Origin: Heterotrichella gracilis
Taxonomy: Eukaryota; Sar; Xanthophyceae; Tribonematales; Xanthonemataceae
DNA length: 64,000 nucleotides
Direction of reading: 5' to 3'
Assembly: GCA_032358255.1 (NCBI GenBank)
Contig: JAULBX010025164.1
Coordinates: 124,001-188,000, forward strand
The notes under the pieces were generated by a model. The model did not search any database and had not been told where the DNA came from. It worked only from the letters and a program-made list of their open reading frames with translations. Every line of letters starts with the position of its first letter. The first letter of the stretch is position 1. A program made the translations under genes and the position numbers. Positions 6,346-57,224 of the stretch are shown piece after piece.

Positions 6346-6625
6346 TCACGTGAAATACCCCCTTTGAAACCCAAAATTCGCCTTACAGCGGCTGGCAAAA
6401 CACCACTGGCCAATGCAGTCAACTGTCGCCAGTCGCCTGGAAAAAACCGCCATAGGGTTGCCATTCCAGCACTCCATCCTGCGACACCCCCACACACTGG
6501 CGTAGTCAAGCACCATCTGCGCTGGGAACTGCCATCTGCCAGCCCACCCATGGCCAGGTTGAGCACACAACCACAGTGGTCAACTGCCGCCAGTTGCTGG
6601 AATAACCCCATCATAGGGTTGACTG
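6346..6625 (-). pseudogene. Degenerate copy of the last GH16 exon
   Basis: About 6503-6572 is a diverged copy of 6697-6787, the last exon of the adjacent GH16 gene. Translated in two different frames it gives VLNLAMGG and QFPAQMVLDYASVWG, matching VLNLAVGG and QFPAQMVVDYVRVWG of the intact exon. The shift between frames shows that it is broken. Two further short copies of a neighbouring segment lie at about 6411-6465 and 6575-6625. The copy sits downstream of the GH16 stop codon and is unlikely to be translated. Confidence 0.7.
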
Positions 6626-6662
6626 CACCGCATCATAGGGTCAACGGCCAAACAGCTGCACC

Positions 6663-9161
6663 CTATCCAGTCAGCGACGACCCCCACACCCTCACATAGT
6701 CCACCACCATCTGCGCAGGGAACTGCGTGCTGGCATCGGGTGGGCCTGGCCACCTGCCCCCCACCGCCAGGTTGAGCACCATGTAAAAGGGCTTGTCAAA
6801 GGGGGCCTGGGCCGAGGCCTTTGCGCCGTAGCTGTTGGCTGTGAACCAGCCCTTGTCGTTGACCGCCTTGGAGTAGGCGGTGTGGTAGTTGACGCCGTCC
6901 ACGTACCTGCACGGGATAGGGTTTAAGGTTTAGGGTTTAGGGGGGATAAGAGTTAGATGGGCGGGTGAGAATGTGTGGTAGTTGACGCCGCCCACAGTGG
7001 AAAAACACATAAAGGAAAATGACACAAGCAGAAATGGCAGCGCCAGGACAGAGCCGAGTGGCGCAAGCTTGTGCAAGGCTGACTGCTATTCTGGCTGTAC
7101 CACTGGTAGGGTACAGGGGCAGAGGATGCAGGTAATTAAAAAGACGAGGGAGGAGCACATGGGCTAATCTGACCCAGCAGGACCTCATACCACTGTAACC
7201 ACGTACCAGCGCATGGTGTTGGCGCTCCACTCGATGGAAAAGGTGTGGAACTTGTCGTCACCAAGGTTCTTGTGGGACCAGCGGCCGGTCTGGGGGAGCA
7301 CAGGGAGCAAGGGTAAGGGTTTGATTATGGTTTTCAGCTTAAGCGGACCAGCGACCAGTCTGGGAAAACAGAGGGGCACTGGGATAAGGGTTTGCTGAGG
7401 GTTTTCAGCTTTTTTTTTGGTACCAGCAGCCAGTCTGGGGGAGCACGGGGGGCATGGGTAAGGGTTTGCTTAGGGTTCAGCTCAGGGTTGCAGTGCGGTA
7501 AGACATCTTGCACCAGACATGGATCTAATGCAAAGCGCAGACCTGCAGTGCTGACACAGTCATTAAGCATCTTCAAGCGTGCCACCACCTGCACGGCATG
7601 CCAGCGCCCCGCCCAGCAACCCAAACAAACCCTTGCGCCCCAGCGTGAACCCTTGCAAAGGGTTTGTGGCTATACCTGCGACACTAGGCCCCCCACGGCG
7701 CCGTAGTGGGCCACGCCATTGGCTGCATTCATGGCATTTACAGACTCCAGGATGTCGATTTCGCCGCTCTCGGGCCAGGGGCCATAGTCGCCGCACGCGT
7801 TGCACTTGCCGCCGGCTGGCAACATCCAGAAGGCGGGCCACAGGCCAATCCCTGCAGGTGGAATAGGGTTTAGTACAAGGCGTAACGCCACAGGCACATC
7901 CCTGCAGACGAATCACTGTATGATTTTAGGGTTTAAGCCGCACTGGGTAGGGTGTAGGGTGTAGGGTTGAAGGATGTAAGACCACATGCGTTGCATTTGC
8001 CACAGCGGGCAGCATCCTAAAAGCGGGCAGCATCCTAAAAGCGGGCAGCATCCTAAAAGCGGGCCACAGGCCAGTCCCTGCACTGGGGGCTGCATTAGAT
8101 TAAAAATGTGATATGCGTGAAGTATATCACATTTTTTTACGTCCATGATCTGCACCAAATAATGCACTAAACTGGCATGCTTCCTGGTCTATGCTGCACT
8201 GCCACACACCGTCCCTGGAACCATTGTCATAAATGTGAATCACCAAACTGACCAAGAGAACCAAACAATCAACCAAAAGAGGGCAATCATGCTGACATAA
8301 TCTATTTAATGGGAACCATCATCGCTGTACCAGCAATGAAGTGAGATGAGGTGTGAGCGCAAACCCTACACAAACCCTACCCGCACCCTAGCCCATGGCG
8401 CACCTCTTGGCAGCTTCACCCTGGTTTCGATCTTGATGGTGGGGAAAGTCTTCCCCGCTTTCATCCCCGGGTAAAACGCCTTGGTCCCCTTGGTGGTCAG
8501 CTTGGCTGAGGTCCATCCAAACCCTTGGTAGGTTTCCTCCAGGGCTTGGATGACCAGGTTGCCGTTGTCGATATACACATTTTTACTGCGGGAGGTGTAA
8601 TACTCAAGCTCATCGTTGCCCCAGCCTGCAGACATTCACAAGGGTTTTGGTAAGGAACTCACACATTATTTGAATGTAACAGACCAAGCAATCCGTAAAG
8701 AGTTTGCTCCGCATGCTGCTGAACAAGTTACCCAACTTGGGTATGAATACAAGGAATGGAATCAAGAATAATTAATGTTTACTTCTTACTGCAATGAATT
8801 GTGGCTACTTTGTGCACAAGCTTGACCGGCAATACATGGCCTTTGGACTTGTTCTAAAAACAGCAACCAGGCTGCGCATGCCTGGTTTTAGGAGGCTGCA
8901 GCATACGGTGCAAATCGGTGCATGCGCAGTCTGTGACATTCAGCACAGTGGTGCCTGACTGATTCCAGGAAGGCACGCAAAATGTGAAACACGTCCAAAC
9001 CGCAAAGAGAGCAATGCATGCGCACCTGGCAGGCTGATTGACTCCCCGTTGCCCTGGTCAAGCTTCCACACCTTGGTGTCCAGCGTGTTAAAGTCATCTC
9101 CCCAAATCAGCTTCCAGCCATCGCTACCTGTGCATGGGCAGCAATCGCTCCATTCAGCCAT
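6663..9161 (-). CDS. Glycoside hydrolase family 16 (beta-1,3-glucanase/laminarinase type)
   Basis: Five exons in transcription order: 9161-9026, 8625-8404, 7851-7676, 7289-7207 and 6906-6663. Phases close for 286 residues. GH16 enzymes cut internal beta-1,3- or mixed-linkage glucans with retention. Visible hallmarks are WGDDFNTLDTKVW near the N-terminus, GWGNDELEYYT, the strand GIGLWPAFWMLP, and the catalytic motif GEIDILE (E-x-D-x-x-E: nucleophile, assisting Asp, acid/base). FHTFSIEW and the C-terminal MVVDYVRVWG strand complete the fold. The ATG at 9161 gives a closed frame but no secretion signal. An acceptor (gcacag) at 9128 means an upstream exon with a signal peptide could replace it. 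The gene is probably secreted and acts in wall remodelling or glucan breakdown. The introns hold duplicated exon edges and CCCTAAA runs. Confidence 0.9.
7276..7482 (-). repeat. Tandem copies of a GH16 exon/intron boundary
   Basis: The first bases of the 7289-7207 exon plus its acceptor and adjoining intron appear three times, at about 7276-7340, 7341-7409 and 7421-7482. Each copy carries the sequence around CCAGTCTGGG and is followed by a TAAGGGTTTG-type run. Only the first joins the coding exon in phase. Confidence 0.75.
7813..8080 (-). repeat. Copies of the GH16 catalytic-exon edge
   Basis: The start of the catalytic exon (reading GLWPAFWMLPA on the minus strand) is copied in diverged form into the upstream intron at about 7993-8080. 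A short unit, gcgggcagcatcctaaaa, is then tandemly repeated three times, and a fourth copy reads into a sequence matching the acceptor region. Confidence 0.7.
8102..8136. repeat. Perfect 13-bp inverted repeat (hairpin) in a GH16 intron
   Basis: Arms 8102-8114 (AAAAATGTGATAT) and 8124-8136 are exact reverse complements around a 9-nt spacer. The repeat lies inside the second GH16 intron. It could be a small MITE remnant or an RNA hairpin. Confidence 0.6.
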
Positions 9162-9465
9162 GGCCTAAACCCTAGACCCTAGACCTTAAGACCTAGCCCT
9201 ATGCACGTGCAATGGCCAGCTTTAGTGGTGCCCTAAACCCTCAACCCTCAACCTCTGTGCGTGCACCGCCAACCTTATAAGTGGTGCGCTACACCCTAAC
9301 CAGGCCAGGTCGCTTCCAGCCATCGCTACCTGTGCATGAGTAGCCATCGCCCAGTCAGAGATGCCCTACACCCTACACCCTAAAACCTAAACCCTAATTT
9401 CCCAGATCAGCTTCCAGCCATCGCTACCTGTGCATGGGCAACCATTCTCCAGTCAGCGATGCCCT
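9105..9465 (-). repeat. Three copies of the GH16 first-exon acceptor region
   Basis: A segment of about 55 bp around CCATCGCTACCTGTGCATG occurs at about 9107-9165, 9310-9370 and 9410-9465. It includes the acceptor and the beginning of the exon that encodes SDGWKLIWGDD. Runs of CCCTAGACCC and CCCTAAACCC separate the copies. The copies differ by a few bases and by the last part of the unit. Confidence 0.75.
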
Positions 9466-12258: not shown

Positions 12259-12349
12259 GTGAGTAGTGTGCGCTCCCCCACGCCCACCATCCCTCACCCA
12301 CCTTGAGACGGCGGGGATGTTGGTGGCTAACCCCGGCAAGTCCCCGCAT

Positions 12350-12455: not shown

Positions 12456-13010
12456 CATACTGGATGGGCAGCAGCGGGTTGCCATTGCCATGGCATCTTT
12501 TGAAGAACTCTTGCGTGCAATGCGGTTCCTGCGCGTGCGCATTCACCTGAGTGTGCCTGTTACACAACGCAGTCTGCACCTGCAAGCCAGGGGAGTGCGA
12601 ACACAACTTGCTGACGAGTCACACCTGGCTGCGCAATTGGACACATATATATTTGTGCTAACGCACTCCCCTGGCTTGCAGGTGCAATGTCGCCCACTCC
12701 ACACTACCCAGTGCAGCAGCGGTCACAAGGGTGCAGCGCACGAGGCGGACCGCTGTAAAAGCGAACCTGCGCAGGCGCTAAACAGGTGGGCCCTAAAAAT
12801 AGAACACAAAATAAAAACTTTAATCGTGTGCGCCTTGGGCGGGATGCCACCTGTCACCTCACACCGGGGTGATCCTGCCATGTCAATGTAGCAAATTATG
12901 TCAATTATACACAGCACCATGTGGCAGATAACCTCAGTAAAAATCAACGGACTGACACCTTGTAACCGATGTTAGTGCTCCTAAATCCAAGCATTGATTG
13001 GGATGGGGTG

Positions 13011-13062
13011 CAGTGGCAGCTTTGGCAGCATGCAGCGTGGTGCTGAGCATGCACCGATCATG
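13011..13062 (+). repeat. Diverged copy of the exon start at 13246
   Basis: The sequence around tggcagctttggcagcatgc near 13013 repeats the exon start at about 13251 (cggcagctttggcagcatgc) and then diverges. It is another exon-edge copy placed in the upstream intron. Confidence 0.65.
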
Positions 13063-13234
13063 GTGCTTTGTTTTTAAAATGTAAATGTTAAAGGCATTCA
13101 AGCCGAACACCAGCGAATGCCATTTGTCAATGCAGCGCTAAATGGAGTGGTTTAAAAATCACTGCAAGCACGAATTGGAGTAGTTCAACTTTAAATTCCA
13201 AATCCACCGACTGTGTGGCACATGTTCCTTGCAG

Positions 13235-14030
13235 GGTGAGCGGCGTGGCAGCGGCAGCTTTGGCAGCATGCAGCCTTGTGCTGACACCTGGCATGGCGCA
13301 TGCGGATGAGCCAATCGTGAACGACTTCACTGTGTCTATCCTGTTTGGGGCGGTGGTGTTCTTCCTGACCGTGCTGACAGCAGGGGTAGGTGGAGGGGAA
13401 GGAAACCCTAATGCTTGAATCCTTAAACCCTTGGTAGCATGTTGCAGTGGTTTTCTTCCTGTCGGTGCTCACTCCATGGGTGGGTGGGCGTAAAAAATGA
13501 AAGAGAGCATGGCACTCAGCGCTATCCTGATGAGCTTACTCGTTTAGGGTTTAGGGTTTGCTTGATGTCTTGGCACACTCACTGAGCGCATGGCACCTGT
13601 CACTAGGTTGCTTGGCTGCTCGTCTGATATTCAATTATAATTGTCAAAACCTGTTTTCCCAGGTTGCGTACGTGTCGCTTGCCAACTGGTTGGATGAGCG
13701 CAAGGAGGAGGAGGAGAGGAGGGCATACGAGACAGCGGAAAGGGCAAGGTGGGTCGAATTGCTAAATGCCATTTATTTTTGGCAATGGCAACGGCAACGG
13801 CAATGGCAAATGGCAAAGAAAGGCTCTCAGAAGTTGGCTAACTCCTTGCACGCCATGTCATACAGTCTTACAAACATGGTTACATGCACAGCAAAAAGGG
13901 ACTTGGCAAGTGTAATCACAATCTACAATTACCCTTGCGCAGGGTATCGCAGGCGGCCAACGCCCCGCCCCCAGGCAAAGCAGCCATCCGCAAGCCAAAG
14001 GCAGCAAAGGGCAAGGGGTTCTCAAAGTAA
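13235..14030 (+). CDS. Small single-pass thylakoid or plastid membrane protein, function unknown (5' end missing)
   Basis: Three exons, 13235-13385, 13663-13748 and 13943-14030, splice in phase. The N-terminal part is a hydrophobic stretch ending in GMAHA, which looks like a thylakoid lumen signal with an Ala-x-Ala cleavage site, followed by DEPIVNDFTVS. One clear membrane helix follows (ILFGAVVFFLTVLTAGVAYV). After it comes a charged helix, DERKEEEERRAYETAERARR, and a Lys/Pro/Ala-rich end, KPKAAKGKGFSK. The topology suggests a short lumenal segment, one transmembrane pass and a basic stromal tail. I do not recognise the family. It resembles small photosynthetic accessory subunits only in layout. 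The transit peptide exon lies upstream (see 11801-12258). Confidence 0.7.
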
Positions 14031-15120: not shown

Positions 15121-15169
15121 GCATTGTGCAATGTATGCCGGCGCAGTGCCTGGCGACCCAAACCCAGGT

Positions 15170-16010
15170 CAGGTTGTGGGTCCCTAGGGAGGCTCCCCGC
15201 TCAAGTGGCTGCAGCGCTGCCTGCTGGGAAAACCCTAAACCCTACGACTCCCGCCCACAGTGGCTGAAGCGCTGCCTGCCTAGTAAAACCCTAAACCCTA
15301 CGCCTCCCGCTCACAGTGGCTGCACTGCTGTCTGCCTGGGGGTGTAGCCTGGCACCACTTTTGCCTTGGAGTTGGTAGAGACCATTGCTCCCTCAGTGAC
15401 ACCCACAATCTGCACACGTGGCGCTTCCAGCGTGGGAGTTGGTTTGTGGGAGTTGATTTGTGGCTCATTTCCTGTGCTGCACTGGGCGCTGTGCTTGGCA
15501 TGTAGTCCACAACCCTGAGCCCGGCCCCAACCCAGTGGGACCCTGGAAAACCTTAATGCAGGGTTTACAGGCCCGAGCCCCCCGTTCACAGAGGCTGCAC
15601 CGCTGTCTGCCTGGGTGTGCATCCTGGTACCACCTTTGCCCTGGAGTTGGCTGAGGCCACAAAGGAGCTGAAGTCACGCACAAGCCTGCGCAGGAGGAAA
15701 GGTTGTTTTGGTCAAGCTGGAGAGGTACAAGGGTTCGCATGGGCACGGCTGGTTAAACCCTAAACCCGATTCGTTAATCTGGCGTTGGCAGAGGCAACAA
15801 AGGAGCTGAAGTCACGCACAAGCCTGCACAGGAGAGGATGGGAACTCAGGTCAAGTGTGAACCCTAAACCCTACCTCCTAATGGCCTGCGCAGGGGAAGG
15901 GATCTCAGGTCAAGGTTGAACCCTATACCCTAAATCCTACTTGCGGTGGCTGAGGCCACAAAGGAGCCGAAGGTACGCACAAGCCTGTGCAGGGGAGAAG
16001 GGGGCGCTCA
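15170..16010 (+). repeat. Array of orphan exon-like repeats with CCCTAAA runs
   Basis: Two unit types alternate. One contains gtggctgcagcgctgcctgc and appears at about 15205, 15260, 15315 and 15590. The other reads as TTFALELAEATKELKSRTSL at about 15630-15700, with diverged copies at 15345-15395, 15780-15830 and 15945-16000. The last copy has a possible donor (GAAG|GTACGC). Copies are joined by AAACCCTAAACCC runs. The translated unit looks like real coding sequence, but no intact gene surrounds it. It may be what is left of a plus-strand gene, or copies of an exon from elsewhere. Confidence 0.6.
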
Positions 16011-16090: not shown

Positions 16091-19000
16091 TCACTTGAAG
16101 GTGGAATCCGCCATGTGCACGCCATACTCGGTGCGCTCATCCTTGTCAGAGGGCTTAATATCCCACTCCCAGAACATGGCCCCCTTGATGCCATCCCCCT
16201 TGCTGATACTGGCGCGGGCGGCATCATACATCGCTGCAAAGTAGGCGTCGCGGGTGCCTGCGATGGTCTCTCCCTCTGTGGCGTTCACCACCTTGCCAAA
16301 CTGCAGGGGAGCAAAGGGTCAATGATCACTTGAATTACCCTACCCATAGGGTCAGTCACCACAGCAGATGACCTCAGATCACCAATGATGACCTTAGCAA
16401 GGGTTGCAGATTGCAGACAAGTTAGCGATGCGATGCACCTACTTTAGGGATGGGCCTGTTACGGAAACGAAACCTCTAGTCCCTTACCTCCTCCACCAGG
16501 AGAGGCTTGTCCATGGGCTTGGCCTCCATCCGGTGCACGTCAACCCCAAACCCTAAAACATAGAGCATAAACCCTACAGTATGAACCCTAAAACCTGCAC
16601 CCTTACCTCCTCCACCAGGAGTGGCTTGCCCATGCGCTTGGCCTCAGCGCGGTGCGCCTCCACCCACTGCTGCACCCACGAGATCTGCACATTGCCCTTC
16701 TCAAACTCCCAGTTGTCGGGCCATGTGTGGGTCACTGCATAGTCCATCTTGGCGTGGTTGAGGGTGAAATCCTGGCCCTGGAGGTAAGGTGGAGGGTAAG
16801 GGGGGGCAAGACATGAGTACATGCTTTGCAATGGACATTCGCCAAAGTTCCATGGTGCCATGCAAATGTAAGTGTTAAGCCTGCTAGGTAAGGGTTATAG
16901 GGTACTGCAAGGAAGTACATCTAGTGACAGTTTTATCCTACCACGTACCGTCTGTGTGCTCCAGGTGGAAGCTGCCCCTCCTGCTGGGTTGAACCCTACC
17001 ATAGGGCTTTGCGCGCCCCAGAAACCCTCCTCCCCAGTGCTGACCTGCAACACAGCCACACAGGAATCTCAGGGAAGAGGAATACCCTAGCAAGTCAGTT
17101 GTAAACCCTAACAGTTACAACCTGACATAGACAGCCTAACGTTTACAACCTAAGGTTGTAGCAAGGTAGGATAAACCCTAGGATAGGTACCTGATGGTGC
17201 CTTCTGCCTGGTGTGCCCGAAAGATGGACTGCAATGGATGAGCTCTCAAGTGTAAACAGCGAGCATCACCTCATGCTTGGGGTGCGCGGCACATGCATGA
17301 TCCCATTTCATGCATAAAGGTGCACATGCGTATTATGGATGCAGTTCTACAACTACAGTCATGTTGTACCAGAATCCTATAAACCCTACCATGTGGTTTT
17401 GGTCCAGCGACCGCAGGTGGGCCGCCATCTCAGAGTACCAGCCATCGATGGCCGACACCGCGCACTCAGTGCAGCGCGGCTCGTTCACCAGCTCCCATGC
17501 CATGATGGTGGGATCGTCGCGGTACATGACCCCCGTCAGGGTGTTCATCCTGCACAAAAGCCCTCAGTTAGGGTTCTCTGATCAGACCGTGAGGCAGGGC
17601 CGTCTTTGGAGTTCTTTGTTTTCTTTTGCATGCCTTCCCATGGCATCTCGAATCGCGTTGAATGCAATGCGGGTCGTTCACAATGCGCCATGCTATGGTG
17701 GCGGGTACCTACAGGGTTTGCGATTTGCAGCTAGGGTCTACCTGTTGACCATCACGCCGATGTGGCTCTTGAACATTGCTTTGCAGCTAGGGTTTAGGGT
17801 TTAGGGTTTTACCTGTTGACCATCACGCCGATGTGGCTCTTGAACATTCCTTTGCAGCTAGGGTTTAGGGTTTAGGGTTTTACTGTTTAGGGTTTGACCA
17901 TCACGCCGATGTGGCTTTTGAACATTGCTTTGCAGCTAGGGTTTAGGGTTTGGGGTTTAGGGTTTAACCTGTTGACCATCACGCCAATGTGGCTCTTGAA
18001 CATTGCTTTGCAGCTAGGGTTTAGGGTGTAGGGTTTTACCTGTTGACCATCACGCTGATGTGGCTCTTGAACATTGCTTTGCAGGTAGGGTTTTGGAAGA
18101 ATGCCTTGAGTGAGGGCTCGGTCTTGCTGCCTAGGCACCACTGCGCAAACTGTGGGCAAGGGGGAAAAGTTATACTTCGTTCTATACTTCGTTCCTATGT
18201 TTGCATACTTCGTTCCTATTTTTGCTTTCTATCTTTTTTTCAATTTTCAAACTGCGCGCACACTCTTCCAGTTGAAGGTAGCTTTTTTTGCGCGCTCAAA
18301 TAGAAATTGGAATTCACTAGGCAGTCCCTGTTGCAACATCGTTCACAGTGCAACAAAGCCCTTCCCAGGGGTTTCCCATGTCTGTGACCACAATCCTTAC
18401 CCCTGGAATGCCATCGGTGGTCTTCCAGTAGTCGGCCAGTGAGAATATGACTCGAATGCCTGCCGCCGATGCCTGCTGGAGCACGTAGTCAAGTGCACGG
18501 AAGGCGCGCTCGCTGTACACACCTGGGGGTAATATCATAGAATGAAGGCAATAAAATGGAATACACTTACTCACGTACATGCGTCCCAGCAGTCCTACAT
18601 GCCTTGCGCCAAAATGAAACAGATCATTGGTAAAAAAATCATTTGACTTCAAAACCATACAACATGTGCAACATGTGCATGGACCCACTGGGAGGCATGG
18701 ACCTCAATGTCCCTGAATCCTAACCCATCAACCCTGCAAACTGAACCTTGAATCCACCCACCTGGCTCTGCCTGCAGCGTCAGCCCAACCTGGTAGTCGT
18801 TGTCCCCGTGAGCAAATATGCGCACAGTGTTGAGACCAGCTAGCGAGGCCTGCTTGAAGAAATATGCCACCAGCTCCATACCCTCCGTGAAGCTCATGTC
18901 TACGGGGAGCACCTCTAAAACCCCTGCCGCAATCTCAAGAAACCTCCACCTGCAGAGAATGGAAGGCATGTAATGATGCGATGCAGTTGGGGAAAGGGTC

Positions 19001-19856
19001 TATGTTAGGTGCGATGCAGTTCCGCTTCAAGCACGCGTGCGAATGATGGGCATGTGTAGGAGGCTTTCAATGTGCACAGCAGGGCCATCGTTTTGGTAAT
19101 TGTCAGTGTCATGCGCAAACCCTATACCCTAAGACATAAAACATGTACCCCAAAACCCTAACCGTGACTCGCGAGTTCCAGCCGCTGATGTAGACCTCCT
19201 TGCAAATGTTATGCGCAAACCCTAAACCCTACGATATAAAACACTAAGCCCTAAAACCCTAATCAGTGACTTACGAGTTCCAGCCACTGATGTGGAACTC
19301 CTTGCAGGTGTCATCCACGAACGCCCCCCCTGCCACGCGCAGGAACCCTGAGGGTCTGCCACCCTGCGCGGCAGCCGCTGAAGCCAATGGGAATGCAGCA
19401 ATGGCCATGATGGCGATCACTGCGCACATGGCGGGGACCAGCCTGCAGGCAAGGGGAGATTGGTAATGTGGGATAGATAATCATTTGATGGATTTCCGCA
19501 ACCACGATACGCATGACGGGGAGGGGGCTGCAAACAAGCGACAATTGATAACACGGGTGGAGAATTCCTATGTCTTTCACATTCCACTGACATGACGCCA
19601 TGACCCACCAGTCCCAACTGCAAAACATTCACAGCAGTACAGCACAGTGTGTAATATGTTCACAGCTTCTGGCAGTATAGTACCTGCTGGCAGTTGGAGG
19701 GGCAGATGCGGGCTGCTGCTTGTCCCTCCCTGCCACCTCCGACATAGGCTTGGGCGCCTGGGGTGTGGAAGCCATGGCGCTGGATGTGTGGCGCTGGCTG
19801 GTGGACTGGGGCAGCGCTAGCGCCCACCACTTTTGGAGGCCACCCGGTGTGGCCAT
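16091..19856 (-). CDS. GH5 endo-beta-1,4-mannanase (mannan endo-1,4-beta-mannosidase)
   Basis: Nine exons in transcription order: 19856-19684, 19442-19275, 18949-18762, 18522-18401, 18149-18040, 17549-17390, 17044-16949, 16777-16607 and 16300-16091. All phases close for 465 residues. The enzyme hydrolyses internal beta-1,4-mannosyl bonds of mannans. The family signature DDPTIMAWELVNEPRC holds the acid/base Glu (NEP). VSTGEEGFWG and LLVEEFGK follow, the latter with the nucleophile Glu. NTVRIFAHGD near the N-terminus and MFWEWDIKPSD near the C-terminus fit the TIM barrel. Before the enzyme lies a polar head of about 58 residues and then the hydrophobic MCAVIAIMAIAAFPLASAAA, so it is either a signal peptide from a later ATG (19430) or a membrane anchor. 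Several introns carry copies of exon edges. Confidence 0.93.
16484..16525 (-). repeat. Copy of a mannanase exon end
   Basis: The sequence cttacctcctccaccagga with the following GGCTTG...CATG...CTTGGCC repeats 16602-16650, the end of the exon 16777-16607, including its donor. It lies in the next intron and is diverged at several positions. Confidence 0.7.
17750..18090 (-). repeat. Tandem exon-end array in the mannanase gene
   Basis: The last 45 nt of exon 18149-18040 (coding CKAMFKSHIxVMVNR) are repeated four more times toward the next exon, with a period of about 70 bp. Each copy is followed by runs of TTTAGGG. Copies starting near 17751, 17814 and 17968 keep a CAACAG|GT donor, and the copy near 17890 has lost it. 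On the minus strand each added copy is preceded by AAACCCTAG, a possible acceptor. A 45-nt insertion would not change the reading frame. Confidence 0.85.
19155..19205 (-). repeat. Copy of the mannanase exon end at 19275
   Basis: gcgagttccagccgctgatg with its flank repeats acgagttccagccactgatg at 19273-19292, the end of exon 19442-19275 (HISGWNS). It is diverged at several positions and followed, as elsewhere, by CCCTAAACCC runs. Confidence 0.65.
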
Positions 19857-23342: not shown

Positions 23343-25522
23343 GTGTTTGTCCTCTCAATGTTCAAGCACTGCCTACGAGCATTGGGCCTACTTCATCTCA
23401 ACCAGGTTCTCATATGTCAGCCTCCTCATAAGCCTCCGGCTTGTCCTTGCAAACGCTGCTGGTCACTGACCATCTCACCTTGTACCCAGATAGACAGACT
23501 CTTCGTTCTCACCTGGCCCAGGTCAACGTTGCAGGTAAGATAACATTTGGGTACTGGCAATGTTCTGTGTTGCGACACTGCGTTAAAGGCGAGCAGTTCT
23601 CGTTTAAAAGCCCGACTTGACAGTGTGCTTGCAAAACCTGCTTCACTGTTACACCGTGATTGAACCATCATCTTTAAAGTGACCTTAACATTAGAATTTT
23701 ACATGAGGACCAATGCGGACCACAAGTGTTGAGCTTGCTGTCCCCTTATCAAAGCCTATCATAGCCTGGTTAACCCATTTCACAACCTGCAGGCCCTGCG
23801 GTGGAATTCCATGGATGCCATAGAGGGCAACCTGCTAGCATGTCTCCTTGAGCTTCCAGTGCAAGTGGTGGAGCATGTGGAGGAGGAAGAAGAGGAGGCA
23901 GTGACACAGCATGAAAGGCGCTTGCAGCTGCAGGCATTCCTGGAATGGGGGCTGGAGAGGCCGCCCCGCACTGCAAGCCTGGCTGACCACATTAGGAACC
24001 TCTTGCCTGGGTTCAACATACAGATCCAGTTTCGTGGGGACTTCAGATTCACTGAGACCCTTGGGGTGGGCAGGTTTGGGCAGGTGTGCAGCGTGGTGCA
24101 CAAGCAGAGCGGGGAGGAGTCAGCACTGAAGCTGAGCATCAAGGAGAACGAGGAGGAGGTGCTGAGGGAGGTCTTCATGACAGTCGCCCTCGATGGCTGC
24201 AGCAACGTGGTGCGGTGCAGCGGTGTGGTGGTGGAGGAGGGGACCGGCCGCGTGGTGGGGATGCTGATGCCAAGGTTTCCAGGCAGCGTTGAAGGCCTCT
24301 GGACATAAGGGTGTGCATGCATGGCATTGACAACGTCATAAAAGCGCCTGCAACCCACTGGCTCCAAACTCTGCCCATTGTGAGGGAACGCAGCGCATTC
24401 CCATAAATTTGTCTTTAAAATGCTATTCAATGCAATGCATATGCTAGCTAGGCTGCTGAGCAAACCCCAGTGATTTTCTCCAACAACCAACAAATTTTAA
24501 CCCACCGCACCTCTGTCATTACAGTGGCAAAGAAACACATACTGATCGCCTTCCCTTCATTTTGCCCATTGCAGCGAAGTCAAGGCATTGGCCCTGGCTG
24601 GTGTCACAACCAAGTGGCACCTTGCCAGCACTCTGCTGCAAATCCTCATGGGGGTGCTCAGCGGCTTGGCGCAGGTGCACGAGCGCCACATGGTGCACGG
24701 CGACGTCAAACCCGCCAATGCCCTGTTCCGCTACAGGAAAGGCACTGTGGAGGTGGCGGTGGCAGACCTGGCTGGCGCTGGGCTGGTGGATTACTCCAGC
24801 AGCACGGCTGTGTTCACAATGTAGGTGTCTGCAATGCCAAGGGAGTCGGTTGGATGCTCATCTAATTGACATTTGCACATTCCTTGCATTGCATATATCA
24901 GGCGCAGCGTCCATCAGTCAAATGAATTTTGTCACATAATGGCTAAAACATCATGCTGAGGCCCATTTTTGCGTGAAATCCTGAGCTATTTTTGCTTTGA
25001 TTTTGGTGGCATTTCATTTGTAGGTGGACATTTTGAGCAATTTTGAACAATGCATGCTTCCATAACCAAATTTGCAGCAGCTGCCATAAGTGACAATTAC
25101 AAAAACAAATCACGAAAAAATGTTTTTTCCTTGTCCCGCCACAGCCTGCCTGCCCTATTGGTCTGTGCCCCATTGCCAGGTGGGAGGAGCGGTTTGTTGC
25201 TCCAGAGCTCTCTGACCCAACACTGCTGCATGGGTGCCGGTTGAACGGCGCTGCAGCAGACATGTACGCCTTTGGCAGCTCCATGCGGGGCATGGTGGAG
25301 GAGCTGGCGGCTGTGCTGGGACCCGAATGGGGTGACTTCACCCTTACCATCCAGAAGGTGATGGACCGCTGCATTGTGCAGTCACCTGTCTTGCCATCCC
25401 GGGTCCTGGAGCGCCCTACAGCGCTGGAGGCACTGCATGAACTGCAGGCAGCGAAGGACATGCTGCATGGGAAGTTCCTGGCATTGTCTGGTGACGCTGC
25501 TGGCCACCTGGGTGCGCCCTGA
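23343..25522 (+). CDS. Divergent protein kinase, tandem copy 1 (5' end uncertain)
   Basis: Exons 23343-23534, 23793-24304, 24575-24820 and 25180-25522 match in phase. The domain has a glycine loop (LGVGRFGQV), a candidate beta-3 Lys (ESALKLS), a catalytic loop HGDVKPAN in place of HRDxKxxN, DLAG in place of DFG, VAPE (subdomain VIII) and ADMYAFG (subdomain IX). It is therefore a Ser/Thr-type kinase relative with altered catalytic motifs. The first exon is Leu- and Cys-rich (LRALGLLHLN) and not identified. The donor after 24304 reads ATAAGG where copy 2 has GTAAGG, and without splicing a stop follows at once, so this copy may be truncated or use another route. The stop at 25522 is 5 bases before the start of copy 2. 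Confidence 0.75.
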
Positions 25523-25527
25523 GGTCA

Positions 25528-36280: not shown

Positions 36281-36284
36281 TGGT

Positions 36285-43000: not shown

Positions 43001-46000
43001 ACCCATTGACGGTAGAGCCAGCGCCAGTATGGGATTGCTTGGCGCCGCTTGCCAAGGCTGGCTACAATACTGTAATGCATGAGACTTATCAAAGACCGTA
43101 CAGCCCACCCCGCCCACTCCTCCTCACTTGCAGAGTTGACCCTCCTGCAACGCCCAGTTGCTAACCAACATGCACCTGCTAGGCAACGCAACATCCAACC
43201 CCACTTCCACCAACGATGTCCCCTCCCCACCTGCAGAATCGACCCTCCTGCCACGCCCCCCTTGAGCTCCTCCACCTCAGACCCTGGCTTGTTCACGTCA
43301 AAGGAGCGAATCACAATCATCTGGGGAGGGGAGGTGAAGTCGCGCACAGGCACCGGGATCTTCTTTGTGATGTACTCACACACCACGTCGATGTTGTACT
43401 TGAGCTGGGCGGAGATGGGGATGATGGGGGCGCCCTCGGCGATGGTACCCTGCAATCGGCAGGTACTCAGCAAGATTTTTGCATGGGGCAAGTCAATCTG
43501 GTGTACTTGACGCGCTCGGCAATTGTGCGCTGCAAGGGCTTTAGGGTGCGTGCTTAGGGTTTTGGTGTTCGCAGCTGGGCTTGATGGGAAGCGACGGCGT
43601 TGCAGCCAAAGGTTTGCTGCTGCTGTGGCACGCCGCCCACCGCCACAAGATGCAAGTTCACACTTGCTCAGCATGCAGCACCACCGATTATTGGGGGTTG
43701 CTTGGGCGCCTACGGCAACCACCATCAGTCTCTCCCATGCCCATGCCCGTGCCACCACCCTTTGGCCTTCCACGTTGAACCAACCTCCTGTCTGTGCACC
43801 CATCGCCACTACCTCTGCACACACGTCCCTCCACCCCATCCCCTTGGCAAGCAAATGCACTCGCACTGGTTCTGAGCGCTGCTGTAGATCACCCCAGCCC
43901 CCGACCCCTGCCACCCTAGGCCCCCATCTGGATGAACGCGCGGATGGCCTCATACTGGTTCTGCGCGCTGCTCTCGTTCACTTCAAAACCCTACACCTAA
44001 ACCCTAAAACCCAACACCCTGCCCGCACCTAGATGAACGCGCGGATGGCTTCGTACTGGTTCTGCGCGCTGCTCTCGTTCACTTCAAAGTCCCTACACCT
44101 AAACCCTAAGACCCAACACCCGGCCCGCACCTGGATGAACGCGCGGATGGCCTCGTACTGGTTCTGCGCGCTGCTCTCGTTCACCAAATCCACCTTGTTC
44201 TGCAGGATGATGATGTGCTGCAGGCGCATGATCTCAACAGCAGCCAAGTGCTCGCTGGTCTGAGGCTGCGGGCAGGGCTCATTGGCAGCAATCAGCAGCA
44301 GGGCGCCGTCCATGACCGCGGCTCCGTTCAGCATGGTAGCCATCAGGATGTCGTGGCCCGGGCAATCTACAAACGACACGTGGCGCAGGAGCTCCAGGTC
44401 CGAGGATTCGAAGCCCGCCACCTCGCAAGGCGGGTTGTCCTCTTTGCTGCTGCCATACGACCTGGCACAGATGGGAAAGCGCGTCAAATGCTGCGCTGGA
44501 ATTCAATTCCTGCTGAAGGGTTTGAGGCGGGGAATAAATGAATATGAAGTGCTGCGCTGCACGGTGCAGCCTGCACCTATAGATGAGAACCTGCACAAGG
44601 ATCTTTTGGGCGGGGTTAAGGGTTTTGGGACCACGTAGGATACCTGGTGCACAAAGACCCTACACCATATACCCTAATGTTGCACCTGTACGTCATCGGC
44701 CTGGGGCACTTTGCGTCCTTGCACTTGAAGATCTTGGCGTTGGCATAGCCCAGCTTGATGGTAATGTTGCGCTCCAGCTCGTTCTTAAACCGCACCGTTT
44801 GCACACCCGAAATGGCCTTGACCACCGTGGACTTGCCATGGGCCACATGCCCGATGGTGCCTGCGTGGGGAGGTGGGCGTGTGAGGTTGCTGTGGGGGGC
44901 GTTGCACAGCTTTGGATGTGTGAAGGGTGTGCTGGTGGTACGGTAGGGCGTAGAAAAGGAATTGTGATACTACTGTGCTATGCATTTTCGATGGTTTCTT
45001 GGCGCAGGTGGGTGTGGGCGAAGGCATATGGTAACCACTGTGCGCTGAAGATGGCTGTGGTGCCCGAGGCTCAGATTGGATGTGTGAATGGCTGTGCTGA
45101 TGCAAGCGGTTAAGATTGCCTCCCTAAGCAAGTGTGGTATGCACTTGCCATGGACCACCTGTGCCCGATGGTGCTTGTGTAAATAGGGTGGTGAAGCTGT
45201 GTGGAGGAGCACATGGTGAGGGGCCGCTGTGAGGCAGCTTTGGTGCCAATGTGCAGCTTTTGTTGTGTGTAAGTGGAGCTCGTGGAAGAGTGCGATTGGG
45301 ATGCTTGTGACTGGTATACTATAGGACGCCTGCGGTTGCACGCAGACCAGTATAGCGTTCCCAGGGAGTTGGGTGCGTACCAATGTTGATGGTGGCTTGC
45401 CGTGAGATGACCTCAGGCGATAGCGGCGTGAGTGTGGTGACATCGAGCTTGCTCAGGTCCTGGAATGTAAGCACAACACTAGTGTGAAAAGCAGTATTTG
45501 ATGAGCCTATGCAATGATGCTGATGCTGGGTTGGTGGAGTACTCACACTGATTGAACAGGTTGCTGATGCACCCAGTGGGTGGAAGAGGTTGTGTGGCAA
45601 GGTGAAGCCTCAGTTGTGCAGGAACAGTTTGAATTAATACTATTCAGCACTGCCAACAAGGCCCGTGGAAAACCAAACTTGCATTGTGGGTGCATAAGCC
45701 CAATGGCACAAATGGCATGCAAGATGCAACCTCGAGGATTTGAGGATCCACACCTGTTCCCTGAGACCTCGCTTCGACATTTTGACAGATTGTATGGAAA
45801 CACAACGGCAGCTGCCTTGCCGAGGTTACACCAGGTACGAAATACGCTGCACTGCAGCGATGGGTGATTGCCTTCCTTGTTTGTCTGCCCACTCTTGTGT
45901 GACTACCCAGCTCTACATCAGGTCTGCTGCGACGAGGACTGAAGAAAATACAGGTTGCATGCACAATATCGGGCACGTAGAGTCCTGCAGCTGGTCCACC

Positions 46001-49880: not shown

Positions 49881-51900
49881 TCAACTCTCCTGGCCTAGCC
49901 ACGTCCACAACGGCTCCAGAAGCCTGCGCAATAGCCTGCGGCTGGCTGGGGGTTCCTCAACAAGGGTGCCCCCTGCATGAATAGTTTGTAGCCACAGCTT
50001 GGGCTCGACCACCGCAGAGCTGTTGACCAAAAATGAATGTGTTTTCTTAGGCTTATTATGGCTCATGGCCCTGACCTCCCGGACCAAGAACGACATGGTG
50101 GACGCCTCCAAACCCACAAACTTGTCTGCGCCCAACAGCAGCAAGTAGTCGATCGCTGCCAGCTGCTCAGAGTGCAGCTCCTGCTTCTGCTCCTTGGAGA
50201 GGTAGCGCTCCTTCCACCGCACCTCCTTGGCCAGCTTGGCATCCGTCACGTCCGTGGCAAACTTGAAAAACACCTTGTCAGCCTCGTATGACAGCAGCCC
50301 CGAGGCGATGTACACCACCGTGTGCTCGTCAAACCCAGCACCCCGCATCTCCTCCAGGTAGGCGTCCATCACGGCGCTGCGCCCACCCAGCAGCATGAGC
50401 CAGTCCTCCACGTCGTCCTCTACCCGCAGGTGCACCGCATTGTACTTGCTCCCCACGTGCTTCCCCACAGCAGCAGCGATCTTCTCCAGAGCTGAAGCCA
50501 CCTTGAGCTGGGCAGCCACCTCGTTCACAAACCGCATGCCTGTGGAGGGGTGTGTGTGTGTTAGTCACAGGCATTCCGATGCAGCCACCTCGGCCACAAA
50601 CCGCACGCATGCGCAGGCAGGAAGGTTAGTTACAACCGGCCACCTTGTGCACAACCGGCATGCCTGTGAATGGAGGGGGTTTTCTTAGTCACAGGCGCCC
50701 AAGCCAGGTCAGCCCCATATGCCTTGGCCCAGTTAAGCCTGGCAAATGCTCGCACCAACTGCTATGTATAATGCGATCCCCATGCCTCCCCCGTCCCTAT
50801 GCACGGCGCTTAAGCCCCCGGGCATCGCCCCAGTGTCTCCCACACCCAATGGGGTCCCTGCCATGCGCCAATAATGAACCCACATGCACACCAACCCATG
50901 CAGAGGCAGAAAACCACCTCTACACCAGTGCTATCAATGCAGACTTCACCCTGCACCCTGAACCTTGGCCAGGGCAGCTGCACGCACCTGTGGAGGTGTT
51001 GACAGCAAACTGGGTGCAGGGGAGGTCGATGACCGTGACAGACCCCGGGGCGTGGTTGAGCAGCTTCTGCTGGTCGCGCTTGTTCTGCTCCACTGTGTTG
51101 CGGAACATGGCCAGGAACTGCTTGAGCGGGAGGGCATTCCGGAACACATTACGAAGCTGCCCCGCTACATGCGCAGCAACCACGTCGCTGTCTGAGTGCA
51201 CTGGGAAGGCATAGGCTGGCCCATTCAGGTCTGGGAGGCTGGTGTTGACTGGCACCAGCTGAAGGGCCACCTGGTGTGCCTCAGCCCACTGCTGGAGGGG
51301 CGGGTAGCTGAAGAGGGTGTCAAATGGCTGGGTGGTCCACACCGCTGTAGAAAGCTCCTTGAGACCCACATCGTCAGTGTCTGGTCGCCAGGGCTCGCCA
51401 TACGAGTCCCGGCTGATGGCTGGAGGGATGCTGACCTTGATCTGGCTCACAGCCAAGCTGCTCTTCAGGGTACGCACCAGGGTGAACACTGACGCGTGGC
51501 TGTACCATTGGGAGGCGAAGCCCCCGCAGACCGTGTAACGGATGGTGAGCTTCAGGCGCATGTAGGGCCTGCCCTCCTGCTTTCCGTGCTTCAGAAAGTG
51601 GAGCATCGCAGCCTCCGCCGTCTTGATGCCCACGGCAGGGAGGTCTGGGTTGAGTGAGAGGTATGCTAGCCAATCAAACCCCTTGGGGAGGGCTCCCTGG
51701 AACACGCCAAACTCTTCGCTGGCAGCAGCGTCCTCTTGCAGCGCGTTGGCATCGAACTCCTCGAAGTCGCCCCCGCCCTCAAACTCCAGCTGCTCAAACA
51801 CAGGCTGCTGGGCGTGCTCAGCCCTGTGTTGGATGAGGTGCTGCCCATGGGATGCCAATATCACACAACTCGCCACCAGGGCAGATAACAGCCAAGGCAT
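49881..51900 (-). CDS. Secretory O-fucosyltransferase-like protein with an added NPDL-type module
   Basis: Two exons, 51900-50988 and 50539-49881, join in phase for 523 residues. An N-terminal signal sequence (MPWLLSALVASCVILASHG) is followed by an acidic linker. A module of about 45 residues then appears: FDWLAYLSLNPDLPAVGI, then HFLKHGKQEGRPY. This resembles the YLxxNPDL...HGxxEGR module attached to many bacterial and algal glycosyltransferases. The rest resembles the GDP-fucose protein O-fucosyltransferase fold: VCGGFASQW near the start, AVHLRVEDD (the HLRxExD box binding GDP-fucose) and VYIASG in the second exon. It would act in the ER or Golgi lumen. The substrate is unknown, and the family call rests mainly on HLRVEDD and the layout. 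Confidence 0.7.
50539..50700 (-). repeat. Copies of the second-exon edge of the fucosyltransferase-like gene
   Basis: cacaaaccgcatgcctgtgg at 50526-50545 (acceptor and codons MRFVNEV) is repeated as ggccacaaaccgcacgcatg near 50592 and tgcacaaccggcatgcctgtg near 50647. The flanking ttagtcacaggc is copied too. Confidence 0.7.
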
Positions 51901-53180: not shown

Positions 53181-56100
53181 ATGAGGTCCGTACATGCCCT
53201 CCCCACCTTACTACTGCTAGTGTACATCCCCTTTCTTCCACCCGCCGCCACAGCGGCATTGACCAGCACCCGCACCAGCACCAGCACCAGCACCAGCACC
53301 AGGGCACCACAGGCGTTGCGCAGGCGGCTACACCAGGGCACCTCAGGAGTAACCCAAAAGGTGGGCATCAATAAACCCATTTTGTGCCTTGCGGTGAAAT
53401 TGTGCCGCGTGGCGTGCACCTTGCGCCATGCAGTATATATTATACGTGGGATGCATGGCATGTTCCTTCCGCCTTGCAATGCGTGTGTGCTGCATCGCAA
53501 AGCAGCTTGCACTGTGCAGTGCACATATGCCGCGCCGCATCGCAAATCATCAGCATTTTCTTCTTTTCAGAAGCCTTGTTCCCAAATCACTCTGTTTTTG
53601 TATACCGTATTACACGCATTGGTCCAAAATGGGCTTTGTGATGTAAGACATATATTTGGGAAGCGTGTGATTCAGAATCCCCTCGTGTGATTCAGAATCC
53701 CCAGAAGCGTGTGACCCCGGGGTCAGGGCATGTCAACCATGTTTTGGGACGCGCACCAGAAAAATTTAAGGTTTTGGGTTGGCAAGACCGTTCACACTCA
53801 ACTTTGAAGTGGGTCTCACCCACGTCTCGTTTGGGGCCTAAGTAGTACGCGCCCCGCATCGGCGCACCTGACATGCGCACCTGACATGACGGCAATGACG
53901 CCAAAAATCTCAACCCTACCTGTGCAGCAATACCCTTACGGCAACCAGCACCATGTGCCTTGGGCGCATGCGCGTGACTACCAGCCCTGGCGCCACNNNN
54001 NNNNNNNNNNNNNNNNNNNNNNNNNNNNNNNNNNNNNNNNNNNNNNNNNNNNNNNNNNNNNNNNNNNNNNNNNNNNNNNNNNNNNNNNNNNNNNNNTTGC
54101 ACGCCATGTATGTCAAGGAGGTGGAGAATGCAAAGAGCAGCGGGGAGGTAAGGGTGTAGGGTTCATACATTATGGGTAAGGGTTTGGGCGCATGCGCGTG
54201 ACTACCAGCCCTGGCGCCACTTGCACGCCATGTATGTCAAGGAGGTGGAGAATGCAAAGAGCAGCGGGGAGGTAAGGGTGTAGGGTTCATACATTATAGG
54301 TAAGGGTTTGGGCGCATGCGCGTGACTACCAGCCCTGGCGCCACTTGCACGCCATGTATGTCAAGGAGATGGAGAATGCAAAGAGCAGCGGGGAGGTAAG
54401 GGTGTAGGGTTTATACATTATGGTTAAGGGTTTGGGCACACGCGCGTGACTACCGGGCCAGGCGCAACCTGCTCGCCATGTATGTCAATGGAGGTTGACA
54501 TGGCCTACCCGCTTGAATGTAAAAAAACTACAAAGGCGCATTGCCCAGTTGCGGTTCTACGATGCCAAATAGAACACTTGGCAGGACAAGGAAGACCATT
54601 TTCCGGGACGCTTGAACACTTTGCCCCTCGCATGCACAGGGCCTGGAGCTGATCTTCTATGGCGACTCCATCACCGAGTCATTCCGCGGCAGCGTCATGG
54701 GCCACCCCTTCAAGCTGTTTGATGGCACCCCGGAGGTGTGGCAACATCACGTGGCGGACAGGTTCAAGGCAGGCGCGTTCGGCATCTCAGGTGCGGGGGG
54801 AAGCAAAAACCCTAGGACAGGGCTCTTGTGTTACAACGCGTGTGGCAGTGCCATGTGGTGAGGCGTGGGTCGAGGCAGAGTGTTTGATGGCGGCATCGTC
54901 CATGCGTCACCCCTCCAGGCCCCTGTTTAGGGTTTAGGGTTTTTTATGGCTTGCCCGAGGTGTGGCAAGGGCTTGCTGCATATAACCTGAGGGCGGGGCG
55001 CGTTTGGCATCTCAGGCACTGGCAAAACCCTGCGGAAGGGTTTCCAGGTGAAGCGAGAACCTCCCAAGCGACATGACAGGGCGCCGCATGTGGCGCTACC
55101 ACTTGGGTCTTGTAGGGTTTCGGGTGTTCTTAGGCCTTGCCCCCCTCGCGTGCAGGTGACGTGACAGAGCACCTGATGTGGCGCCTGTTGAACGGGGAAG
55201 GCCCAGAGGGGCTGGGTGCTAAGGCGATCGTGCTGCTGATCGGCACCAATGATTTGGGCCACGCGATGAGCGAGGTGCGGAAACCCCAACCCTGAACATA
55301 AACCCTAAACCCTGTACCGTGATCAGCGATCGTTGTGCTGATCGGCACCAGCGATCGGCACCAGCGATGCGCGATGAGCGAGGCGCACGAGCGCCGCCTA
55401 GGAACTGAAAACCCTAAACCCTTAGGGTGCCCCAGCGTATGACCAGGCCCATAGCGCTCATATGTAATGATTACATATGGGATCACAAGTAATATTACAT
55501 CTGATCATTTTATCATTTTATCATTTATGATCAGCTGAGCTTAATGACACCCCACTTCCTCCTCTTGCAGAAGAGCAAGGAGGCCTATGACCAGGCCACG
55601 GGCCGACCTCAACTCAGATGTAATTATTACATACGGGATCAGATCTAATGATTATGTATGATTGCATACGCTTGATTACACCCCATTCCCCCCCTTGCAG
55701 GAGAGCAAGGAGGCGTATGACCAGGCCATGGCCGACATCATCTCCAATGTGGTGGCAATCTGCCAGTATTTGCAGCAGGCGGCCCCCGGGGCGGAAATCT
55801 TCCTGATGGCGCTGCTGCCCAGGGGCCTGGGTTTCAGGAGCGGGAGGGTCAAATTCGAGCAGCCATCCATGTGAGTTGTGGGGGCACATGTTGGCAATTA
55901 TGTAATCTAAGCACTTGCCCATTTTAAACGTAAAGAGGGGGGCGCTTGGGGCAGTGTCAAATGTTGTGGATCAGGCGGCCCCTGAGGCAGAAATCCTGCA
56001 TGCTGCCAGGGGCCTGGGGTTCAGGAGCGGGAGGGTCAAATTTGCGCAATCGTGCATGCAGGTTGGGGGGCCATGTGGTCTTCACCAAATTTGCGCAGCC

Positions 56101-57224
56101 GTCCATGTATGCTGGGCCATATGGTAGGGTATACATGCCACATCAATGTAGCGATTGCAGGGGATAGAGTAGACACGAGGTAGCACCTTCTTTGTTGCGA
56201 CCTCCTCGTCCTTAACCAACGCGTCAGTTCACAATATGGCAACATGGCTGCGTAGATGTTAATTTGATGTAATTACTTAAGATCCTCCTGTGGGAAATGC
56301 AGCAGCCCTCCTTGTGAGGGGAGAGAGGTGCCCCAGTTGGGAAACGGCCCTGCCCCTGCCCCTCCCCTCCTGTGCGCAGTCCCACTCCCCCCCTGGACCA
56401 AACCAACAAGGTGGTACCCTAGCCCCGGAACCCTACACCCCAAACCCTAAATCATCAACCCTCGAGGATCGGCTGACACCCTCCCCTCCTGCGCGCAGTT
56501 TCACCCCTGCCCTAGACCACATCAACAAGGGGTATGCAGATTTTGTGAAGGAGGGGAGCTCGGGCCACATCCACTTTGTGGATTGCGACCAGCACTTCAT
56601 TTCTGATGACAAGAAGCGCCTCAAAAAGGATCTGATGCCTGACGGCCTGCACCCCAACGCAGCCGGCATGGAAAAGGTAGGGGATGCTGGTTAGGGTTTA
56701 AGCTAGGGTTTAGGGTTACACCCACTGATGCCTGAAGAGCTTGCACCCCATAGCAGCTGGCATGGAGAAGATAGGGCGATGGGGTTCTGGCTAGGGTCTT
56801 GGCTGGGGTCCCGCCTAGGATGTAGTCCTGGATTACATTAGGGTTTGAGCTAGGGTCAGGGATGGCCGCCAGCAACCCAAGAGGTGAAGAACGACCCCTT
56901 TTTAATGATCATGTTACCAGCATCGGATCGTTAAAAAGGGATGCTGGCATCGTACCTGTATGGAGCAAGTAAAAGGACTAAAACACATCCTGCCCCATGT
57001 GTGGCGCCATCCATGGATGAAAAGTGCTTTACACGCACGTTCTGTCGAAAACATCTCTACCCAGAGCACCAACGTTTCCCCTCCCCTCGCAACTGATACA
57101 GCCCTTCTTCCCCTTGTTGCAGGTGCTGGAGTGCCTGGAGCCGCACCTAGGTAGGGTTTTTGGCAGCAGGCACACCATCAGCCAGGGAAATGACAGCAGC
57201 GCCAAACCCCAGCCTGCTCAATAA
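53181..57224 (+). CDS. Secreted SGNH/GDSL hydrolase, PAF-acetylhydrolase-like
   Basis: Seven exons, 53181-53360, 53928-54147 (containing the N gap), 54640-54790, 55156-55274, 55701-55870, 56499-56676 and 57123-57224. Phases close; without the gap there are 339 residues. SGNH hydrolases are Ser-His-Asp esterases acting on acyl or acetyl groups of lipids or polysaccharides. Block I is FYGDSITESFRG (catalytic Ser), the Asn block is LLIGTNDLGHAM, and block V is DGLHPNAAG (catalytic Asp and His). The first exon gives a signal peptide (MRSVHALPTLLLLVYIPFLP) followed by Thr/Ser/Arg repeats encoded by a CACCAG microsatellite, so the enzyme is secreted or enters the ER. WRHLHAMYVKEVENAKSS precedes block I as in animal and algal PAF-AH-like proteins. 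Almost every intron carries exon-edge copies. Confidence 0.9.
53261..53303 (+). repeat. CACCAG microsatellite inside the first SGNH hydrolase exon
   Basis: Tandem CAGCAC/CCAGCA hexamers encode an alternating Thr/Ser run after the signal peptide. Length variation here would keep the frame. Confidence 0.85.
53960..54490 (+). repeat. 123-bp tandem array of the SGNH second-exon end, with an assembly gap
   Basis: The unit carries the codons HARDYQPWRHLHAMYVKEVENAKSSGE, the donor GAG|GTAAGG and a TAGGGTT-type intron part. After the coding copy it recurs at about 54188, 54311 and 54435, and the last copy is strongly diverged. The second and third copies keep the donor. Confidence 0.9.
53997..54096. 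other. Assembly gap of exactly 100 N
   Basis: The flanks (...ctggcgccac and ttgcacgcca...) are contiguous in every other copy of the surrounding 123-bp unit. The gap therefore probably hides a whole number of repeat units, and its true size is unknown. Confidence 0.95.
55455..55660. repeat. AT-rich palindromes and an exon-edge copy in an SGNH intron
   Basis: 55459-55479 is a perfect palindrome (CATATGTAAT, G, ATTACATATG). Similar taattattac and tgatcatt...atgatca inverted sequences follow up to 55660. Between them, 55565-55600 copies the start of the exon at 55701 (ESKEAYDQA). Further edge copies lie at 55960-56060, 56360-56385 and 56726-56770. Confidence 0.7.
56895..56940. repeat. Inverted repeat in the last SGNH intron
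   Basis: Arms CCCTTTTTAATGATC (56896-56910) and GATCGTTAAAAAGGG (56926-56940) pair with one mismatch around 15 nt. Possible MITE remnant. Confidence 0.5.

Follow-up and report, generated by a model that had tools for sequence, protein, structure and literature searches.

The 64,000-nucleotide window analysed here (positions 124001-188000 of contig JAULBX010025164.1 in the Heterotrichella gracilis assembly, which comprises 68.5 Mb in 903 contigs) holds genes for a GH16 protein, a GH5 mannanase, Mpv17, eIF2-gamma, an O-fucosyltransferase-like protein and an SGNH hydrolase, in which exon ends and their splice sites recur as direct copies in the adjoining introns, in many cases with a telomere-like run of (TTTAGGG)n beside or between the copies. 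Such a run is termed T below, the duplicated flanking stretch X, and two copies around one run X-T-X. Gene models were trained on the sampled sequence and a stricter set was used, a first set having been rejected for its many micro-exons; the O-FucT, MPC, eIF2-gamma, SGNH/GDSL, Mpv17, GH16 and GH5 domains were recovered from the models, the domain search taking six proteins cut out of fused gene models. The assembly contains a nuclear rubisco small subunit whose best match is a long-loop small subunit, presumably the green-algal kind, and this similarity would point to a green alga as the host. Plastid psaA and psaB have no match anywhere in the assembly, and since the nuclear small subunit is present, the plastid genome is probably absent from it. 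The copies and associated repeats in the window are as follows.

7267-8082, minus strand: GH16 acceptor-edge copies in two clusters, 7267-7482 with degenerate T only and 7815-8082 with T at 7948-7968.
9101-9461, minus strand: GH16 acceptor-edge copies, the T runs C-rich on the plus strand and G-rich in the coding sense.
13010-13284, plus strand: acceptor-edge copy (37 bp, 92%) in a small gene at 12.7-14.0 kb, new with respect to the preliminary description.
15196-16003, minus strand: mannanase locus, 3' part, in which T runs accompany local repeats of mixed type.
16485-16645, minus strand: mannanase (GH5) donor edge, a clean X-T-X made up of exon end and GTAAGGG, T at 16542-16603, a second exon-end copy and T-free intron.
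17739-18090, minus strand: mannanase donor-edge array, the coding copy (18037-18090) and four more copies with T runs between.
19107-19314, minus strand: mannanase donor edge, tandem pair of X+T units.
30665-30899, minus strand: GRP-like gene, a 48-bp direct repeat of 94% identity, with T adjoining (30916-30944) and not between the copies.
34101-34509, plus strand: Mpv17 donor-edge array, three intron copies with G-rich T between.
35049-35462, plus strand: Mpv17 acceptor-edge copy, without strict T.
40438-40656, minus strand: eIF2-gamma donor-edge copy (score 50), without T, likewise new.
40721-40973, minus strand: eIF2-gamma local direct repeat, without T.
41753-41787, minus strand: weak acceptor-edge copy (score 50) in an eIF2-gamma intron.
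43119-43155, minus strand: weak donor-edge copy (score 49) in an eIF2-gamma intron.
43919-44184, minus strand: eIF2-gamma donor-edge array of repeated X+T units, with the coding copy at 44122-44184.
50639-50693, minus strand: weak acceptor-edge copy (score 45) in the O-fucosyltransferase-like gene.
53960-54498, plus strand: SGNH-hydrolase array with a 124-bp unit (exon end, GTAAGGG and intron) and a run of Ns inside.
55539-56076, plus strand: SGNH acceptor-edge and donor-edge copies, strict T being absent between them.
56632-56781, plus strand: SGNH X-T-X at the coding edge, which ends AAAAG/GTAGGGG.

For comparison, 25 further 10-kb stretches were used, of which contig C2 supplied 20; together with the window they amount to 314 kb. 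Self-alignment with T masked (score at least 50, lag below 800 bp) yielded 46 local direct matches within the window and 55 across the 25 stretches, grouped into 65 clusters of which 23 lie in the window; at the same score cut-off, inverted repeats and three Markov shuffles yielded none, so the local direct repeats are not due to chance, and their presence is confirmed both in the window and on C2. The preliminary description had placed exon-edge copies at 18 positions, and every one of these has a local direct repeat at or near it, 15 of them strong (through clusters at score at least 50) and three weak (41740, 43120 and 50592, as exon-edge alignments only, at scores of 45-50). It had further held that the copies decay with distance, which is not borne out by their identities read outward from the exon (0.87, 0.93 and 0.88 in Mpv17; 0.93, 0.83, 0.94 and 0.96 in the mannanase; 0.95, 0.95 and 0.44 in eIF2-gamma), and that the coding copy is the intact one, which stands only in part, as in-frame stops are absent from 31 of 37 intron copies and indels from 28 of 37. 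Of the genes named as free of copies, H1 and the stretches taken to be SERINC and MPC2 show neither a cluster nor a T run of their own; the gene at 12.7-14.0 kb, taken to be the fourth of them, QCR8, carries an edge copy at 13010-13046 and a T run at 13542-13559.

Solved structures can be aligned with spliced eIF2-gamma over its full length, including the join whose intron holds two near-complete copies, and the spliced mannanase aligns with solved structures over the exon join at the 17.7-18.1 kb array; those intron copies are therefore not part of the protein. The gene model called one mannanase copy (16488-16523) an exon; it was left out of the protein queries, and the alignment spans the join. 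Genome searches with Mpv17 and mannanase queries found no second haplotype for these two loci. They also bear on introner-type transposons, which would leave one element scattered over many introns: no clean second copy of the duplicated edge was found, and what the searches returned was T-like matches, a simple repeat, one stretch of exon and a short repeat of dispersed kind. The run of Ns within the SGNH array could be taken as a sign that the copies were assembled wrongly from repetitive reads, an account that is hardly credible given that the copies differ from one another (X identity 73-98% in 25 pairs) and that T runs linked to splice sites, including donor-T patterns, occur on many contigs among the matches listed. 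The Ns themselves lie at 53997-54096.

A strict scan of the 314 kb with the TTTAGGG unit (score at least 12) found 127 runs, where the reversed unit and two permuted ones, used as decoys, gave 0-4, with near variants such as TTTTAGGG scoring in between; a looser scan had been dropped in its favour, permuted units having matched nearly as often. Genome-wide, (TTTAGGG)2 occurs 5629 times and the backwards pattern 5 times. Judged by sequence, the T runs are short internal runs of a telomere-type motif, presumably the telomere repeat of the species, at a frequency far above chance, and TTTAGGG is described as ancestral in green algae in the available text of PMC8226300. These runs are associated with the duplications. 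T lies within 23 of the 65 clusters, compared with 9.7 expected for random placement (0/2000 permutations), and the excess is seen in the window clusters alone (12/23 vs. 3.9 expected, 1/2000 permutations) and in those of the 25 stretches alone (11/42 vs. 5.7 expected, 32/2000 permutations). Comparison of the two flanks of each merged T run (score at least 34) revealed direct repeats at 49 of 126 runs and inverted ones at 0 of 126; random positions gave direct repeats in 151 of 2392 cases (6%). The assertion that the copies are mostly separated by T is too strong: at score at least 12 it applies to 8 of the 18 positions, or 9 of 18 if a score-14 run in the third SGNH unit is counted, that is, about half. 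It might be argued that these are ordinary minisatellites overlapping exon ends, with telomere-like units by chance, since several true tandem arrays of about 2-5 units exist and 36 of 60 spacers hold no T above random. The excess of T within clusters, which no permutation matched, the 49 directly flanked runs and the crowding of T behind donors render this account improbable and disfavoured, and head-to-tail units are found in the arrays only, not in those two-copy X-T-X whose second copy runs into other sequence.

A tight X-T-X, in which neither copy is more than 15 bp from T, accounts for 25 of the 49 directly flanked T runs, with a median X of 50 bp (interquartile range 45-62, identity 73-98%) and a median of 35 bp separating the copies; the remaining 24 flanking repeats lie farther from T, several of them inside longer arrays, and 77 of the 126 runs have no detected X copy. 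At 16485-16645 of the window (where X ends GAG/GTAAGGG) and at position 3592 of one 10-kb stretch (L031:3592), one copy has T behind it and the second runs into other intron sequence, and a further locus (L026:9326-9453) resembles these one-sided cases, with a T-like run about 14 bp further on. Tandem duplications of X+T with the same T, nearly identical behind both copies, are present at L015:5603-5770, in eIF2-gamma and at 19164 of the window, and several arrays have grown by tandem expansion of an X+T unit already in place and not by repeated insertion. The one-sided and the tandem cases together make two steps likely, an X-T-X event and then tandem expansion. An alternative order of events would start from T as a fragile G-rich spot, at which replication slippage or template switching re-copied the preceding 45-65 bp together with T, telomerase being uninvolved in the duplication and the exon edge being caught up in it through its chance position beside T. 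When 25 pairs were chosen by slightly different limits (score at least 30, neither copy more than 12 bp from T), a T-like run stood behind the second copy in 18, as such re-copying would have it, and both the near-identity of T behind the tandem copies and the frequency of T without a detected X copy speak for it as well. This order is nevertheless on the unlikely side, for it leaves the origin and the intron-end position of T unexplained and is at odds with the one-sided loci and with the 7 of 25 pairs that show no T-like run in the 30 bp behind the second copy.

The preliminary description had treated exon edges as a special target of the copying, a claim that the comparison with other queries does not sustain. 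The proportion of queries with a local copy at score at least 50 was 25/354 for donor edges and 24/354 for acceptor edges, against 29/544 for intron interiors, 3/268 for exon interiors and 1/123 for intergenic sequence; exon edges are little above intron interiors and not clearly preferred. The depletion of exon interiors is the effect that selection would produce, and the exon-edge pattern is mostly explained by selection on where a duplication survives. Tight X-T-X is more frequent at T runs within 40 bp of a splice site (15/49) than at interior ones (5/49), an excess that may in part be one of detection because exon sequence decays more slowly. The link to splice sites lies in the position of T.

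By region, introns (179 kb) contain 121 T runs, intergenic sequence (44.5 kb) 6 and predicted exons (90 kb) 0. The zero for exons is partly built in, as a T run carries a stop codon in frame roughly once in 21 bp and stops are barred from exons in the gene models. Of the T runs, 99 belong to well-supported introns; a start no more than 20 bp behind a donor is seen in 27 of them where 5.0 are expected (0/1000 placements), with the excess present in the window (6/31 vs. 1.4) and in the stretches (21/68 vs. 3.6), and 8 end within 20 bp before an acceptor, again with 5.0 expected (137/1000, not significant). Gene models may pull donors towards T, because exons cannot extend into it. In a model-free count over the whole genome, AGGTRNG lies within 20 bp upstream of (TTTAGGG)2 454 times and downstream 108 times, the decoy AGGCRNG lies upstream 102 times, AGGTRNG being 1.3 times as common as this decoy in the 314 kb, and AGGTRNG upstream of (CCCTAAA)2 is found 280 times. 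Introns with T (n=63) have a median length of 393 bp and those without (n=291) of 279 bp, a link subject to the caveat that longer introns have more room for T. The idea of one recurring process that enlarges introns hence retains the local direct copies, the direct repeats around 49 of 126 T runs and the greater length of T introns in its favour, and loses the exon edge as its target; the link of T to duplication in the form of X-T-X, the donor pile-up of T and its orientation bias are additions to it.

T is biased in orientation, being for the most part G-rich behind donors and C-rich ahead of acceptors. In the coding sense and within 30 bp, T is G-rich at 20 donors and C-rich at 11, compared with 1 and 11 at acceptors (Fisher p 0.0015), and within 25 bp before YTGCAGG C-runs outnumber G-runs genome-wide (205 vs. 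80). Both the intron-end placement and the orientation could stem from selection on splicing, with G-runs acting as enhancers behind the 5' splice site and CCCTAA(C) resembling a branch point ahead of the 3' splice site, and not from the site at which T is produced. GGGGG is 9.5-fold enriched at donor positions +7..+45 of 171 T-free introns in the 314 kb, and CTGAC and TAACC are enriched 3-4-fold before the acceptors of T-free introns; since these introns share the G-runs and the branch-point-like 5-mers, the orientation bias may reflect splicing selection. Such selection does not account for the X-T-X duplications, nor for the frequency of C-oriented runs right after donors (11/31, and the 280 genome-wide), for which we know of no role in splicing. 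It is a serious possibility, somewhat short of an even chance, and one that is compatible with the break-repair explanation developed below, as the two can be true together.

Some further features of the window were noted in their own right. A perfect 25-bp inverted repeat with a 62-bp loop lies at 12575-12686. The stretch 17472-17524, inside a mannanase exon, matches contigs C211 and C354 at 85-87%, possibly as paralogues, and 35556-35645 has about 10 genome matches at 71-85% identity, marking a dispersed short repeat in or beside a predicted exon of the Mpv17 region. Tandem paralogous genes, kinase-like by eye, occupy 23.8-25.7 and 26.1-28.1 kb (23793-28103), their exons about 72-77% identical in the aligned pieces.

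The explanation put forward here, to which we give about an even chance of being right, is the repair of staggered breaks with telomere-type filler, followed by tandem expansion, with selection sorting the products around splice sites. Genes would suffer breaks whose ends are long and staggered, fill-in of the overhangs would leave X (about 45-65 bp) on either side of the break, and (TTTAGGG)n telomere-type repeats would be added to a 3' end before joining, giving X-T-X; the X+T unit would then expand in tandem into arrays of exon edge and splice site. Events in exons would be removed by selection, and intronic events, or those in which X straddles a splice site, would persist, so that exon edges would come to look as if copied into introns. 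The X-T-X geometry, the local and direct character of the copies, the intron-end position and orientation bias of T and the tandem expansion are observed; we infer the staggered break, the fill-in, telomerase and priming, as well as the template switching of the preliminary description. Two reasons for the position of T near intron ends can be envisaged: the 5' splice site, with its G-rich GTRAGGG, may pass for a telomere primer, or G-runs behind the donor and CCCTAA ahead of the acceptor may be tolerated or exploited in splicing. In the former case, the G-rich 5' splice site would be a preferred site of TTTAGGG healing, telomere-type repair would be coupled to gene structure and would seed both intron growth and spare splice sites, and each event would stamp a second exon edge and splice site into the intron; we regard this coupling as decidedly doubtful. 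G makes up 72 of 150 bases over the final six positions of X, against 46 of 150 at its start, a difference that is confounded with donors. The mannanase exon at 18040-18149 carries AAAACCCTA immediately before X, so telomere-like sequence is found on the exon side of X as well.

Several observations weigh against this explanation. The T-like runs behind 18 of 25 second copies fit a tandem duplication of an older X+T equally well, and the T-free introns leave room for a splicing origin of the orientation bias, just as the absence of T from exons is in part a product of the models. The 36 of 60 spacers already mentioned, all of at least 10 bp, carry no T above 95% of random segments, and a further 17 pairs have a spacer below 10 bp or none, so telomere sequence is not required for duplication. 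X identity and T purity are uncorrelated (rho 0.18, p 0.38, n=25), and this counts against a joint origin because such an origin should correlate them. In-register bases at the break, the mark by which telomerase priming is recognised, were found at 0 of 7 informative priming junctions, a count that local alignment biases to zero by trimming matches. Four genome matches to the Mpv17 and mannanase queries, at 71-74% identity, extend over an X copy with T on either side, and the copies may therefore not be strictly local. The five stretches outside C2 contain no more than 5 T runs in all and lack edge copies at score at least 50, and density therefore varies along the genome; on C2, where the matches listed include 36 of (TTTAGGG)2 over 457 kb, the density of this motif is close to the average for the genome (5629 in 68.5 Mb). 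An empty site was sought in the kinase-like paralogue pair, whose introns proved too diverged to align, and whereas one-step insertion in mammals rests on empty orthologous sites, as far as the available sources describe it, the present inference draws on this genome alone.

Introns have been gained through break repair or tandem duplication of AGGT in Daphnia and Drosophila. The direct repeats around a break and the duplicated splice sites seen there are shared with the present genome, but those cases concern new introns and the present one the enlargement of existing introns at their ends (introns made up of only T and X were not looked for). In plants, tandem duplications follow paired nicks and short direct duplications arise from staggered breaks; the short direct repeats are again held in common, and telomeric filler is not known from the plant duplications. 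A literature search found, in the titles and abstract openings of the papers listed, no description of telomere-like runs at splice sites. Direct repeats at intron borders, of 4-30 bp (mean 11.4 bp) and within tens of bp of splice sites, have been read as traces of break repair in the available text of PMC11782384; those are short repeats around introns, whereas the present ones are about 50 bp long, with both copies at one intron end and often with a telomere-like spacer. The closest parallel appears to be the short interstitial telomeric repeats that are inserted at breaks in mammals, some of them with target duplications (PMC2246262; PMC7215372), and with which the present genome has in common both short internal telomeric runs and direct duplication of the target. 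As far as the accessible parts of these sources go, such duplications are a minority in mammals (4.6% in rodents and 16% in primates, PMC2246262; few in the horse, where they are ascribed to staggered breaks, PMC7215372), against 49 of 126 T runs with direct repeats here, the tight ones of about 50 bp. Human interstitial telomeric repeats lie in introns at the share expected at random (31%; PMC7215372), and the present runs at intron ends (27/99 within 20 bp of donors vs. 5.0 expected); in-register bases, given for 67-80% of mammalian insertion breaks in the available text of PMC2246262, were not detected here (0/7, by a method biased to zero). The present insertions look like the mammalian kind, with a higher share of direct repeats and with placement at intron ends, and this non-random placement makes the present case a variant of such insertion.

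If the break-repair explanation is true, the introns of this genome carry a readable record of their growth, each event being marked by telomere sequence and by a duplicate whose source can be told, and the long-standing question of the cause of intron lengthening would become testable through the comparison of strains. Telomere-type repair would be tied to exon-intron structure and would furnish a natural supply of duplicated splice sites.

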